Origin: Phascolomyces articulosus
Taxonomy: Eukaryota; Mucoromycota; Mucoromycetes; Mucorales; Lichtheimiaceae
Direction: 5' to 3'
Assembly (NCBI GenBank): GCA_025677815.1
Contig: JAIXMP010000013.1
Coordinates: 620,001 to 684,000, forward strand
Length of the DNA stretch: 64,000 bases
This document shows positions 14,257-48,177 of this stretch, one piece after another (within the stretch, counting starts at the first letter, position 1; the number at the start of each line of letters is the position of its first letter). The notes under the pieces were generated by a model. That model saw only the letters and a list, made by a program, of their open reading frames with translations. It had not been told where the DNA came from and did no database searches. The position numbers were made by a program, and so were the translations under genes.

Positions 14257-15783
14257 TTAGGCTGGTGATGGTGAGGATGTATTATTATTACGACTTGTAT
14301 TATTCTCTTCTACAGGCACACCACGACACACAGGACACGAATTATGGGTTTCACATAACCAACGATCCACACATTCTTGATGAAATACATGACAGCATTT
14401 CAATACACGTACTGATTGTTTTGGTACAAAATCATCCAAACATACAAGACATCGATCTGTCCCTCGCATACGGCTTTTGGTATCATCTGACCATGGAATC
14501 ACTGGCATTGCTGCATCAATCGCTGCTTGTGTAGTGGTGGCAGGTCTTGCAGGTCCAATTATATTGGATAACCACATTAAATCTTCATAAGTTGGATTGT
14601 CGGATAAAGCCGTATTGCCAGGTTGTGCGCTAAGAACATAAATGATCCATTGATCACCTTCGTTATTATTGTTGCCACCTGTATTAGAAGTGTTGTTATT
14701 GTTGTTGGATGAGGAATGCGTGGATGATGAAGATGGATGAGGTGGTACAGGAGGTGGAGGTGGAGGCATATATTGTTGTGATGAATGTGTAGATGATGAA
14801 GAAGTTTGTTGTGCTGCTTGTTGTACTGCTGTACGATTGGAATGAACGGAAAGTGGCATGGATTGTAAAGTGGCCAAGGAAGATGAAGTGGATACAGTGG
14901 ATCGTGGTCTTCTTCTTGGTAATGGAAAATCACTATGGGATGTGGTGGTGGTAGGTGAAGTGGATGCACGGTATCCAATAATCACAATAGGTAATACACG
15001 TTCAGAACCCGTATCCTCTTGATGTTGATTCGTACCCGTATTACTATTAGGACGTAACGGTACCTGAACATAATAACGGAAAAAGGAATTTCCTCGATCA
15101 TTCGTACCAGTATTGGTTGTATGTACAGAATCTCCACTACTATTCACATTATTATTGTGAGTACTGATGCCACTATTACTGTTATTATCTTGCTGTTGCC
15201 GAGGAAGGGATGAAAATACAGCAGAGGCAATGATATCCGAAAGCATATGACGTAAATCGGACGCATGAGAAGAAGTCGTAGAAGCTGCAGAACTACTAGT
15301 CGTGGCTGAAGAAGGATGTGTATGAGGGTTTATTGTCGTTGGTGTTACATTGTTGGTACTGGTAGGTGTGGTCACGGTGGGTGAAATAAATGGCGCATCG
15401 AGATTTAAAAAGGGAATGGGAGGAGGTGGACCTGTTGCAAGGGCAGCGGCACGAGTGGCTGCTACTGTGGCATGACGAACAGAAGAAGTGGTGGATGCAG
15501 AAGAAGAAGATATAGGATGACGACGATGGTGTCCCTCGACAATAGAAACTCGAGTGGTTCCTCCCCCTATCGTTGCATGATGCATCCCATTTTGATGACC
15601 ATTAACATTATCGGCATTACGTCGTAGTCGTTGACGACCAAACCGATGTCTTGATGGGTGATTATGCAGACGATTCGAAAGCCGCCTTAAAAAAGAAATG
15701 GGACGTCGAGAATGGATAGAAGAAGAATGAAGGGTTCGGGTAGACGCATTGTCTTGTCTGATGGAAGAAGGTGCTTGTCCCAT
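14257..15783 (-). CDS. RING-H2 finger protein, putative N-myristoylated E3 ligase
   Basis: Single-exon gene of 508 aa. It starts MGQAPSS, which fits the N-myristoylation rule (Gly2, Ser6), so the protein may sit on membranes. Residues 30-60 are rich in Arg/His. The middle (about 70-390) is low-complexity Ser/Thr/Asn/Pro. The C-terminus (about 445-490) has a complete RING-H2: CLVCLDDF, CCHVFHQECVDRWL, CPVC. Such fingers bind two zinc ions and recruit E2 enzymes for ubiquitin transfer. Substrates cannot be read from sequence. The tail after the RING is Asn/Ser-rich. The gene is followed 1.0 kb away by a second ubiquitin ligase gene, also on the minus strand. Confidence 0.85.
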   Translation of the reverse strand: MGQAPSSIRQDNASTRTLHSSSIHSRRPISFLRRLSNRLHNHPSRHRFGRQRLRRNADNVNGHQNGMHHATIGGGTTRVSIVEGHHRRHPISSSSASTTSSVRHATVAATRAAALATGPPPPIPFLNLDAPFISPTVTTPTSTNNVTPTTINPHTHPSSATTSSSAASTTSSHASDLRHMLSDIIASAVFSSLPRQQQDNNSNSGISTHNNNVNSSGDSVHTTNTGTNDRGNSFFRYYVQVPLRPNSNTGTNQHQEDTGSERVLPIVIIGYRASTSPTTTTSHSDFPLPRRRPRSTVSTSSSLATLQSMPLSVHSNRTAVQQAAQQTSSSSTHSSQQYMPPPPPPVPPHPSSSSTHSSSNNNNNTSNTGGNNNNEGDQWIIYVLSAQPGNTALSDNPTYEDLMWLSNIIGPARPATTTQAAIDAAMPVIPWSDDTKSRMRGTDRCLVCLDDFVPKQSVRVLKCCHVFHQECVDRWLCETHNSCPVCRGVPVEENNTSRNNNTSSPSPA

Positions 15784-23112: not shown

Positions 23113-24582
23113 ATGATGCCACATAATAATGCGTTTCAACCTAAAAATGCAAGAACCATTCAACCTTTTGATGATGATGATGATGATTTTGATGATACCA
23201 GTTTATTTGGTTCTTCCATTACCACCAATACTAAAAAAACGAGTGGCACACAAGCATTAGCTGATTTTTTGAATACAACAAGCCCAGAAGAATTTCAACG
23301 ACCAAGTCCCGCATCGACTATCAGTACAAGTAGTAGTACCACAACAAGTAGTAGTACTTTTTTCAGATTACGCAAGAGCAAACGTCCCAGTAATAATAAT
23401 AACGCATCCTCCTCTGTATCATCCATCACATCCACTACACCAACGCCGACTCCCACCACTACCTTATCTACTTTGGGGGATCTTCCTAATAATACCATTT
23501 CTATGATCCAGCAAGGTGGCAGTGGTAAGAATAAAAAACATATAGAGATCGTCCCTTCAAGATCAACTCAAAAACATCAACAACCTTATAATTTTCAACG
23601 ACCTCCATTACAGCCACAGCATCAACAACATCCGACAAAACAACCTGCTCCTCCCTCTTCTCATCATCCACATTCTCAGCAACAGCAACAGCAGCCATCA
23701 TCACCGCCACCATCCCAGCAACATGTACCAATTCAACAACGTCCTTTACCACGTATTCCCACAAGCCCTACAGCATCTCTTTCATCAAGCCATCAATCCT
23801 TAGCTTTACGTGAACCTCAGAGTCCTATATTACCTAATCGACGACGCGAATCCAGTCTTTATAGTGGTAGTTTAAGGAACAATGCCAGTTTACGTGGAAG
23901 ATTTAGTGATTATGGATCATCTAGTGCTGGACGTGCACCAGCTACCTCGAATCGACGTAATATTATGGAATTATTTGATCAACCTATGCCTCCTCAACCT
24001 ACTTCCACTAGTACAAAACCAAAAGAAATCGATCATATCGATACAGCCCTTTTGCAACGATTGGAACAACATCCAAATACTATTAGCAATGAATCAACAC
24101 CACTTCCTAAAGAAATACAAACCATACTCTCCCCTACAACAACAACAACAAAAACGCGTCGTCATTGTCAAACACAAACAATTCAAACATGTATCTCTGA
24201 ACCTCTTTCACCATTGGATCGTCATCCCCATCAAGTGTTACAACGAAGTCATAGCTTATCCATGTCAGGGACTACGGTAGAACAACTTGAAAAACAAATT
24301 GCAGAAGAAAAAAGACGGCAAAAACGATTACAAGTGGCCATGCAAGAATCAACGGATCAATTTGAGGTGTTGAGTGGATTGGCTTATATGAAATTACGTG
24401 AGTTATGGGAAGAAAGAATGCGGTGGGAAGAAGCTTATTTTACATTAAATGAACGATTGGAAGAAATACATCAACAACGACAACAGCAACAAGGAGGAGG
24501 AATGATGGATCCAAATTCAGTTCCTTCAGCCGCAGCTCTTGTGTCACAGTTACCACCTCCACCACCTGCTCAATCCATTTAA
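23113..24582 (+). CDS. low-complexity protein with C-terminal coiled coil, function unknown
   Basis: Single-exon ORF of 489 aa; I do not recognise the family. The start has a second Met (MMPHNN). Features: an acidic patch (FDDDDDDFDD) at about 20-28; a conserved-looking segment GTQALADFLNTTSPEEFQR at about 45-63; long Ser/Thr/Pro and Gln/His-rich regions to about 230; a basic Ser-rich middle with SRRNIMELFDQPM; and a helical, heptad-like C-terminus at about 388-455 (VEQLEKQIAEEKRRQKRLQ, then LRELWEERMRWEEAYFTLNE), followed by Pro-rich residues. This looks like a scaffold or adaptor with a coiled-coil tail. The open frame, start context and composition support a real gene. Confidence 0.75.
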   Translation: MMPHNNAFQPKNARTIQPFDDDDDDFDDTSLFGSSITTNTKKTSGTQALADFLNTTSPEEFQRPSPASTISTSSSTTTSSSTFFRLRKSKRPSNNNNASSSVSSITSTTPTPTPTTTLSTLGDLPNNTISMIQQGGSGKNKKHIEIVPSRSTQKHQQPYNFQRPPLQPQHQQHPTKQPAPPSSHHPHSQQQQQQPSSPPPSQQHVPIQQRPLPRIPTSPTASLSSSHQSLALREPQSPILPNRRRESSLYSGSLRNNASLRGRFSDYGSSSAGRAPATSNRRNIMELFDQPMPPQPTSTSTKPKEIDHIDTALLQRLEQHPNTISNESTPLPKEIQTILSPTTTTTKTRRHCQTQTIQTCISEPLSPLDRHPHQVLQRSHSLSMSGTTVEQLEKQIAEEKRRQKRLQVAMQESTDQFEVLSGLAYMKLRELWEERMRWEEAYFTLNERLEEIHQQRQQQQGGGMMDPNSVPSAAALVSQLPPPPPAQSI

Positions 24583-45042: not shown

Positions 45043-48000
45043 TTAACTATCAATCTTCATAGTCAACACAGTAGCAGAGTAGGGTTCAAAAGTGTAACCA
45101 AATTGATTTTGATGTCTGATATGGAATGTATTCTTCTTGGGAACAACCGTGTTTGGAGAATCGAGAGTATTTTCATCGGCAAGGTTTCCGGTCACAAAAG
45201 TAGCATTACCATAGTTCAAGACCTTCAGACCCTTTAACGAAAAGTTAACAGGTTGTGGTGCTGGATCAAGGTTGATAACCTATATATATATATGATTACA
45301 CACATTAAGAAGTAAATCCCCTTGTCCTATAATTTGTTATATAATACAATTTATATCCTACTATATACCTTTACGTAAATTTCATTCAAGTCCTTGTTAG
45401 ATCCAGCTACCCAGTAGAGAGGATCAAAACCTCCTTCCTCAGCATCTACTTGCAAAATGGTATCGGAATCTAGTGATGATAGTATTAGTAATATGAAGAG
45501 TCAATATGTCTATATAACATCTTTGCCTTTAATTTCTAAATAACAGGCACTTACGATGTGTGCTATACATTTGAAATATATAGTAAAATGGAGCAACAAC
45601 AATTTTTTCGGTATCAAAGTGAATCATATCTGATGAGGTGTAGTAGATAAATCGTATTAGGTTTCATGCTAAAAAAATCATATAAGTATATATAAATTTT
45701 ATACCTGGATCCCATTGCTCTTGGTCAAGGCGTTTCATGCTTGGGGCATACGCAATCATTTTGACAAAGTCAGAGTTTCTTTCCAAACCAGTAATAAATA
45801 CACCATCCGCCAAAGCAGCTTGTAAGTTTGCCGGACTAGTACCACAGCAACCAGCCGTGTTTGTTGCAAACTATATAAATTGATAAAATTGGTAAGCTCA
45901 TGAGGATATATTCATGATAATGTTGTAGTATAAAAGGTATTTAAATGAACTTACCTCTAATAATAATATAGCATACAATGGATATAATATTAAAATGCTT
46001 GATATTAATTGACATATATTTTCATTATCATAATTCTCTATATATATTTGACTTACCTCCGACAAAGATACCAGATCCATTTCCACTACGAGCATAATTA
46101 TCATAATAGTCAAAGTTCGAAATCATTTCTTCAGTAGTCATCTACGTATATTATATGAGTATAATGTATATTCTCCAATGTTAGTATATTAATCTTCCTC
46201 TTTATCCAATATTCATGTGTAAGAGCTTTTTTTGGCTCTTACATAGTAATGATCATCGATTAAGTCCCAAGGTCGTGATTCTTGAGCAGCAGTTGAGATG
46301 ATAGTCTTGTCTGGATACTTTTCAGTGATAGCATCATAATAAGCTTTGTAACGATAGTCATATGTATCACTAAACCAATCTTCGTTGCCAATCTCAATCA
46401 TATCAATTTTAAAGGGTTCTTTGCGACCATGTTCTGCACGAAGTTTGCCAAAAGGAGTTGATGCATCTCCTAAAAGGTATTCTAATTCATCCAAGGCATC
46501 CTGTACAAATGGGCCAAGCTCATGTTCAGGGACTAAATGTATATATTATATAAAGCGGTTTAAAATAAGTGCCTATCTTTAAACATAAGATCACGTATAA
46601 CTCTTTAAAGGAGAAAGCAAAAGGCAAACCTGAATCGCCTTGAAGGGAATAACCTGCATAGAGATCGAGAATTGGTTCCATGTCCATGTCTATAAATATA
46701 TATTTTAGTTAATAATAATAACCACATTTAAAATATTTGTATTTTGCATACATAAAAAAATATAAACACTGCTTACCATCAGTCTAATATGATTTACAGC
46801 GGTAGTTATCATCCGTTATTATCAATAAAAAAAGTCAATGTTCAAAGTTTCCCATGAAATATTTATAAATTAGTTCCATAAATTTCCTTTAGTTCTTACC
46901 ATATACATGTAATCGAGAAGACCTTGACCATTTGTATTCCAACTAAATGTACCATGTAAGAAAAATGAAGTGTAAAGAAATATTATCCAGGAATAAAAAG
47001 TCAGGTACTTACTATTGCCAGTCACCCATACGTCCACGGCGTTCCTCTAAAGTACCTATAGTTTCATTCCACTTCCAGCGTGTATCAATGAATTGACCTT
47101 CGAGATTATTACCACCAGGAAATCTAATATTTGAAAATTTTCATTTTACATATTAGTTGGGATGGAATGTAATAGCATGCATTTTTTTTTTTTTTCAAAA
47201 AAAAAAAAAAAAAAAAAAACAGTTACCTAAAGAACTTGGGCTTCAATGCAGCAAGAGTTTCTGCGATATCCTTTCGAAGACCATTTTCTCGATCTTTATA
47301 AGTTTCACCAAACAAAGAAAATACTTGGAACCAGATCGGGTTACCCACTGCTTCATCAGAATTGACTGAAATGGCGAAGACGTTATCAATAGATGTTTCC
47401 TTTACATCTTTAGGAGATAATGTCACTTCAAACTTTTGAAAATCTTTAGATAAGCCATCAATTTGTGCAGATGCAAGGACACCACCGCCTGCTTTTTCCA
47501 AAGTAACGTTCAGTGGGCCAGAATATCCATCAGACTTGGCAAAGAAACTAGCCTTGTATGATTCACCTTCCTGAACACGAATACCCCACCAGCCTTTGTT
47601 TAAGAAACCAGCACGACCGGAGCCCAATTCATTGACATCTAAGCGCAAAGAGTTTGTATTGGCATCATTCAAACCGATATCGGAATCTAACTTGATGGAT
47701 GCCTTTGTTCCCTCTTCGATCACATTCCAAAACGCAAGATCCGGTTCTCCACCAGTATCGTTAGCTTGAAAATTCCAATTGCGAAGCATTTGACCATAAA
47801 GTGCACTGTCACCACATCGATTAATATCCTCATACATAAGCTATAGATACATATTAAATTTTATTAGCTTCTAGTGAAAAAATAAATGTTGATGAGATCA
47901 AATAAATATCAACATACACCGTAAAGAATAGGTGAACTCGAGTTTCCAGGAACGTCATTTCTGATGGTTAAGGATAATGCAGAAGCCTGCTGCATTAATG

Positions 48001-48177
48001 TAGTAGAAGCTACCAACAGACCTGCTGCAATCGATAAACTGGGAAGATGAAACTATAATTTTTTTAAGTAAAAAATGTGTCAAAATTTTTGGCATAGATG
48101 TTTTTTTTTGTCATTTCTGTAATTCTCTCCTCTTTCTTATTTATAAATAATTCAGCGATATAGAAAAATACCTTCAT
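45043..48177 (-). CDS. secreted alpha-L-arabinofuranosidase, GH51
   Basis: Removes arabinose side chains from arabinoxylan or arabinan outside the cell. Minus strand, 14 coding exons: 48177-48172, 48052-47918, 47840-47227, 47123-47013, 46942-46900, 46783-46777, 46689-46630, 46532-46243, 46141-46057, 45956-45955, 45870-45705, 45629-45555, 45469-45369, 45279-45043. The sum is 1932 nt, 643 aa. The signal peptide spans exons 1-2 ([11 protein letters not shown]). Then [18 protein letters not shown], a carbohydrate-binding-like insert (to about 200), [26 protein letters not shown], acid/base Glu376 in IEIGNEDW, and nucleophile Glu451 in GIFVGEFATNT, followed by [17 protein letters not shown]. The Glu451 codon is split over two introns by a 2-nt exon, and exon 6 has 7 nt; see findings. 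Confidence 0.93.

Follow-up and report, generated by a model that had tools for sequence, protein, structure and literature searches.

The GH51 alpha-L-arabinofuranosidase gene of the fungus Phascolomyces articulosus (Mucorales, Lichtheimiaceae; assembly of 47.4 Mb) very probably contains a true, constitutive exon of just two nucleotides, AG, at positions 45956-45955 on the minus strand of the window, by which we mean the whole 64,000-nt stretch of DNA that was analyzed. The gene appears to be a working one, and the two introns that flank the exon would be spliced sequentially by intron definition. We infer the use of the exon in RNA, the order of splicing, constitutive inclusion, and activity of the enzyme from the anatomy of the DNA, the reading frame, homology, and a second exon of this size found elsewhere in the genome. 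If RNA confirms this reading, exons in Mucoromycota reach down to two bases.

Structure of the GH51 gene and position of the 2-nt exon

The GH51 gene occupies positions 45043..48177 (minus strand) and has 14 coding exons, with a coding sequence of 1932 nt, including the TAA stop codon, for a protein of 643 aa. Exons 1 to 4 were positioned manually, with protein alignment as the only check, and the part from 47000 down was covered by spliced alignment as well. The protein carries the GH51 catalytic and C-terminal domains (Pfam entries PF22848, E value of 6.5e-34, and PF06964, E value of 2e-29, both above the cut-offs). Its nearest proteins among the matches listed come from Circinella (90% identity), Zychaea (87%), Fennellomyces (80%), and Syncephalastrum (68%). 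The 120 and 113 proteins listed include no model for this locus that bears the host's name; the cluster of P0001 could contain one.

The coding part of exon 1 comprises only the 6 nt ATGAAG (48172..48177) and was placed from the start codon, the donor, and the frame, as it lies outside the spliced alignments. Exon 6 is a 7-nt microexon, ACTGATG (46777..46783), recovered by spliced alignment. The intron upstream of this microexon is also found in a paralogue of the gene, the downstream intron is absent there, and skipping of exon 6 would shift the frame. Elsewhere in the window, seven open reading frames of at least 250 aa, such as those at 14257-15783 (minus strand) and 23113-24582 (plus strand), represent further probable genes; scans of the window for tRNA and Rfam families gave no match.

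Exon 9 (85 nt, 46057..46141) ends with the codons for GIFVG and a single G (...GTC GGA G/gtaagtc; slashes mark splice boundaries). It is followed on the minus strand by intron 9 (100 nt, 45957..46056; gtaagtc...attattag), by the 2-nt exon 10 (45955..45956; attattag/AG/gtaagttc), which supplies bases 2 and 3 of the GAG codon of Glu451, by intron 10 (84 nt, 45871..45954; gtaagttc...tttatatag), and by exon 11 (166 nt, 45705..45870), which starts with TTT GCA ACA (FAT). Both introns are canonical GT-AG introns. Their donors score 5.4 and 9.4 and their acceptors 8.2 and 8.0 for introns 9 and 10, respectively, within the ranges of the GH51 gene and its paralogue (1.9 to 10.4 for 21 donors and 4.0 to 11.5 for acceptors). 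The donor of intron 9 lies in the weaker part of its range, with 4 of the other 20 donors scoring no higher. The lengths of the two introns are normal for these genes, in which the other 19 introns placed measure 70 to 119 nt; taken as one intron, the interval between exons 9 and 11 would have 186 nt, more than any of these 19 and more than the introns placed in the neurofibromin gene described below (at most 138 nt). A preliminary description of this DNA had proposed the same arrangement, and every coordinate and length that we checked holds, from the end of exon 9 at 46057 to the start of exon 11 at 45870, as do the ordinary size of the flanking introns and the 14-exon model that closes in frame.

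We then analyzed the residue encoded across the 2-nt exon. E451 is invariant in all 15 aligned proteins, and in the alignment to 6zps, E376 and E451 (numbers counted along the alignment rows) pair with Glu351, the acid/base residue, and Glu429, the nucleophile, of MgGH51. The available text of PMC7604909 describes Glu429 as the nucleophile, with covalent inhibitors bound to it in crystals. This alignment agrees with the earlier proposal that the AG completes the nucleophilic Glu of a GEF motif. In the paralogue from the same genome (contig C23, locus L004), the corresponding site (...IFIGEYGTH...) lies inside one uninterrupted 278-nt exon.

Need for the 2-nt exon and alternative splice solutions

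The protein-to-DNA spliced aligner that we used allowed GT-AG introns from 40 nt upward and exons down to 1 base, with uniform site scores. Its input was the gene DNA from 47000 down and three of the 120 proteins listed (P0001, P0002, and P0004), from YWNTNGQG on. With each of the three orthologues given (Circinella, 90% identity; Zychaea, 87%; Syncephalastrum, 68%), the aligner picked the 2-nt exon at 45956-45955, so that the comparison with GH51 proteins suggested in the preliminary description came out in favor of the exon. None of the three alignments contains a frameshift, and the one with P0004 inserts one codon and deletes one residue at other places.

Splice solutions between exons 9 and 11 were also enumerated, covering single introns of at least 30 nt (GT-AG, GC-AG, or AT-AC) and pairs of GT-AG introns of at least 40 nt each. 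The ranges searched held 41 in-frame, stop-free solutions (21 with a single intron and 20 with two), which calls for a correction of the earlier statement that no other donor or acceptor pair tried gives two bases without a stop, but a single one of the 41 encodes VGEF, namely, the 2-nt exon AG with the donor at 46056. Its total site score is 31.0, versus 31.2 when this 2-nt exon is combined with the donor at 46071, a choice that would drop GIFVG; given this near equality, it is homology, not site strength, that fixes the donor at 46056. We consider it extremely unlikely that the gene uses another splice choice, either a non-canonical acceptor or a single intron running from a weak donor at 46063 to 45871, which would give GIF-FAT without V-G-E and an inactive protein. 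Among the 21 single-intron solutions listed, the 46063-45871 intron comes out best, but it has a donor score of 0.8, lower than any of the 21 placed donors, and its removal would take the invariant nucleophile with it.

Skipping of exon 10 would lead to a stop after 461 codons, and retention of intron 9 or intron 10 would do so after 459 or 469 codons, respectively. The preliminary description had raised the possibility of regulation by splicing, which found no support here, as these events give merely truncated frames. Regulated inclusion, with skipping as an off-switch of the enzyme via the premature stop, is compatible with the exon reading, and we hold it to be unlikely: the stop on skipping does fall ahead of the last exons, and a regulated microexon is described for the sugar-use regulator Xlr2 of Trichoderma in the text available on it, but the skipping products are plain frameshifts, as with any 2-nt exon.

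The sequence AGAG/GTAAGT also holds a juxtaposed acceptor and donor, as would suit a zero-nucleotide recursive-splicing ratchet or a stwintron, in which intron 9 would use the second AG of AGAG as its acceptor and no exon would be left. Stwintrons are not known to leave anything in the mRNA. As far as the available descriptions go, they resemble the GH51 site in that two adjoining introns of a fungal gene are removed consecutively, and they differ from it in having an external intron with a splice signal that is interrupted by the internal intron, whereas the GH51 gene would keep two bases. In terms of coding capacity only, a zero-nucleotide cut would join G to TTT, with the same frameshift and stop after 461 codons as in skipping and no Glu. 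Moreover, the [D1,2] stwintron layout, with the internal intron between bases 1 and 2 of the external donor, is absent, since the acceptor is followed by AGGTAAGT. Because the layout differs and two bases would stay in the mRNA, the GH51 site is not a [D1,2] stwintron, and we give the zero-nucleotide cut a next to negligible probability.

Returning to the 2-nt exon, we compared conservation on its two sides. Identity with P0001 is 92.2% after the site and 88.9% before it, and the corresponding values are 86.5 and 86.9% for P0002, 79.8 and 82.9% for P0003, and 69.3 and 68.9% for P0004. Conservation is thus equally good on either side, which argues that the frame is not decaying. The GH51 proteins of relatives, as annotated, cross the site unbroken in a comparison made on the aligned proteins, so that nothing shows the split of the GH51 gene to be shared or old. 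An origin of introns 9 and 10 by duplication of one intron was considered and rejected, as their likeness is unremarkable (rank 20 of 253 pairs).

Chance expectation

The frequency of such sites by chance was estimated in 20,000 random segments drawn from 204 kb of the genome, on both strands, each fitted with intron ends resembling the gene's own (constructed length of 184 nt, versus 186 nt in the gene) and splice scores at least as high as those of the weakest real sites. Some stop-free, frame-restoring exon of at most 59 nt was present in 1,483 segments (7.4%), and frame rescue by itself is therefore weak evidence. A 2-nt exon giving exactly Glu was found within the same limits in 65 of the 20,000 segments (0.33%) and at the observed score sum in 13 (0.065%). 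Since the random sample takes in loci that had been chosen for holding TAGAGGTAAGT, the test is conservative. The 2-nt exon site of the GH51 gene is more than chance.

The 7.4% of segments with a frame-restoring exon of some kind would speak for an assembly error or a young pseudogene, in which exon 11 has lost an initial AG, the true or ancestral intron is a single one of 186 nt, and the internal AG with its splice signals is coincidental. We judge this very unlikely. Just 0.065 to 0.33% of the segments contain a 2-nt exon with sites of this quality that gives exactly Glu, the single intron would exceed the 19 others in length, downstream conservation equals upstream conservation, and the genome holds an independent second 2-nt exon. 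The exon reading predicts the cDNA GGAGAGTTT.

The 11-mer TAGAGGTAAGT has 18 occurrences in the 47.4 Mb, counted on both strands, versus 35 for the reversed control; as this 11-mer was chosen after the fact, the random-segment test is the fairer one.

A second 2-nt exon in a RasGAP gene

We inspected the other 17 TAGAGGTAAGT sites and found that one (L009/L022, C18:665091) falls within a neurofibromin/IRA2-type RasGAP gene. The upstream flank of this site reads ...CAACAAAC/gtaaattt and the downstream flank tttag/TGGCTGCC... Four orthologues, from Fennellomyces (P0123), Radiomyces (P0124), Cokeromyces (P0139), and Benjaminiella (P0128), were taken from the 15 unbroken proteins with the motif, and all four spliced alignments place a 2-nt exon AG at C18:665094-665095 (L022:695-696) on the plus strand, although that with P0128 goes astray further downstream. 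The exon lies between introns of 138 and 96 nt, reads QQ-T-V-AALIELSK, and completes the T and the V of QQTVAALIELSK. This additional case from one and the same genome greatly raises the credibility of the 2-nt exon in the GH51 gene.

The host's public neurofibromin protein, P0121 (BDA99DRAFT_547292), is without its N terminus, and its opening residues, MDDNWIIWKAILSFNK, correspond to exon 2 read in another frame. The Zychaea protein (P0122) passes from QQT directly to YFRLPT. A rough pattern sort of the 120 proteins of the neurofibromin set gave 42 that are contiguous across the junction, 58 with neither half (including P0121), and 20 others. Ten of these 20 (P0122, P0127, P0133, P0134, P0136, P0141, P0143, P0145, P0148, and P0152) were judged to be broken at the junction, and the remaining 10 were judged to be misses of the pattern. 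The breaks hint that other Mucorales may have an awkward intron at this place, which they fit, and are no proof of a 2-nt exon there. Close relatives such as Fennellomyces are contiguous across the junction.

Proposed splicing route

Introns 9 and 10 are short (100 and 84 nt), so each can be recognized as a unit, and we propose that they would be spliced by intron definition. An acceptor and a donor only two bases apart can presumably not be occupied simultaneously, which implies removal of one intron after the other, and consecutive removal is the likely route. If intron 9 left first, the joint ...GGAG/AG/gtaagt would restore a nine-base donor, GAG/GTAAGT, as used by intron 9, and intron 10 would leave next. 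If intron 10 left first, TTAG/AGTTT would stay behind, with an ordinary acceptor. In either order, the mRNA would read GGA-GAG-TTT (G-E-F). In the neurofibromin gene, removal of the first intron first would build the donor AACAG/GTAAGT, which is nearer to the donor consensus than the original first donor, AAC/GTAAAT. A combination of intron definition and recursive removal has been proposed for an Arabidopsis 1-nt exon, according to the available text of PMC4674806, which also cites a potato 9-nt exon where the second intron leaves first.

As a tentative and, on balance, doubtful extension, there might be a small class of such AG exons of 2 nt in Mucorales, each representing the exonic half of a donor (AG/GTAAGT). 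They would arise where an existing donor gained an intron immediately ahead of its final two exon bases, with the first removal then rebuilding the second donor, and the neurofibromin case may be old, shared in part of the order, and repeatedly lost from public models.

Comparison with known ultra-short exons

The GH51 exon is an addition to the ultra-short internal exons already known. The preliminary description had ranked it among the shortest exons of any organism, which is true, but exons of 1 nt are documented in Arabidopsis APC11 (PMC4674806), in plant VPS55 (PMC8831610), and in Fusarium CYP621A. The authors of the Fusarium study (Nelson and Syed 2026; PMC12940212) present theirs, in the available text, as the first from any fungal gene, and exons of 2 to 5 bp from Arabidopsis, Drosophila, and human that are cited there fall into the same size class in other lineages. 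As described in that text, the CYP621A exon resembles the GH51 one in that it is fungal, fills in a codon of a conserved motif (PKG), and was found via flanking exons that are out of phase, with an intron-free relative as a yardstick. It differs in having 1 nt, in being common to 20 orthologues, and in having RNA reads behind it, whereas the GH51 exon has 2 nt, comes from Mucorales, concerns a nucleophile codon, is accompanied by a second, unrelated case, and is predicted from DNA.

The available parts of the plant papers show further parallels. VPS55 likewise combines an ultra-short exon with strong GTRAGT donors, and annotations that miss a plant 1-nt exon give proteins with lost or altered N-terminal residues, like the host's neurofibromin model. 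APC11 and VPS55 differ from the cases reported here in being plant genes whose exons were verified by RT-PCR and RNA-seq and are conserved across land plants. The open-licence literature, judged by titles and the starts of abstracts, yielded no report of a 2-nt exon in Mucoromycota, and a search by species name found no paper on Phascolomyces articulosus. A Mortierella paper that matched the term "microexon" was set aside, as in its available text the term only names an aligner option.

That annotation often misses 1-nt exons is stated in the available texts of both PMC12940212 and PMC8831610. Since annotation often misses such exons and trims the protein instead, they are probably under-counted, as two cases in one genome suggest. 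If the present reading is true, a large Ras regulator depends for its start, and an enzyme for the codon of its catalytic nucleophile, on two introns being spliced through a two-base joint. Exons of 2 nt would also allow intron definition and splicing order to be tested cleanly, because exon definition should be impossible at two bases.

Genome-wide census

We then looked for similar sites throughout the genome. A gapped pattern (branch site, TAG, any two bases, and GTAAGT) had 13 sites, versus 86 for the reversed control, and none of the 12 besides the neurofibromin site was exon-like by eye. TAGAGGTRWGT had 77 sites, versus 86 for its reversed control. As the reversed controls were not exceeded, there is no genome-wide excess of such sites.

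A test of coding potential in the flanks was applied to 40 of the 77 TAGAGGTRWGT sites, representing 37 distinct upstream sequences, some of them repeat copies. Twelve of the 37 were without a flanking donor and acceptor within the limits, leaving 25 that were scored. The neurofibromin site ranked first (margin of 8.1) and the GH51 site second (6.5), a ranking biased by a codon table trained on the GH51 gene and other parts of the neurofibromin gene and by site models trained on both GH51 genes. The third site, L045 (margin of 4.0), was rejected, as its acceptor score of -3.1 is below that of every real acceptor. In this genome, 2-nt exons thus look rare but real, with no large hidden excess. 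Five of the TAGAGGTATGT sites (L010, L041, L046, L056, and L058) have similar upstream sequences, such as GACATGGCC...TTGCCATTAG, resembling a dispersed repeat with an acceptor-donor-like motif.
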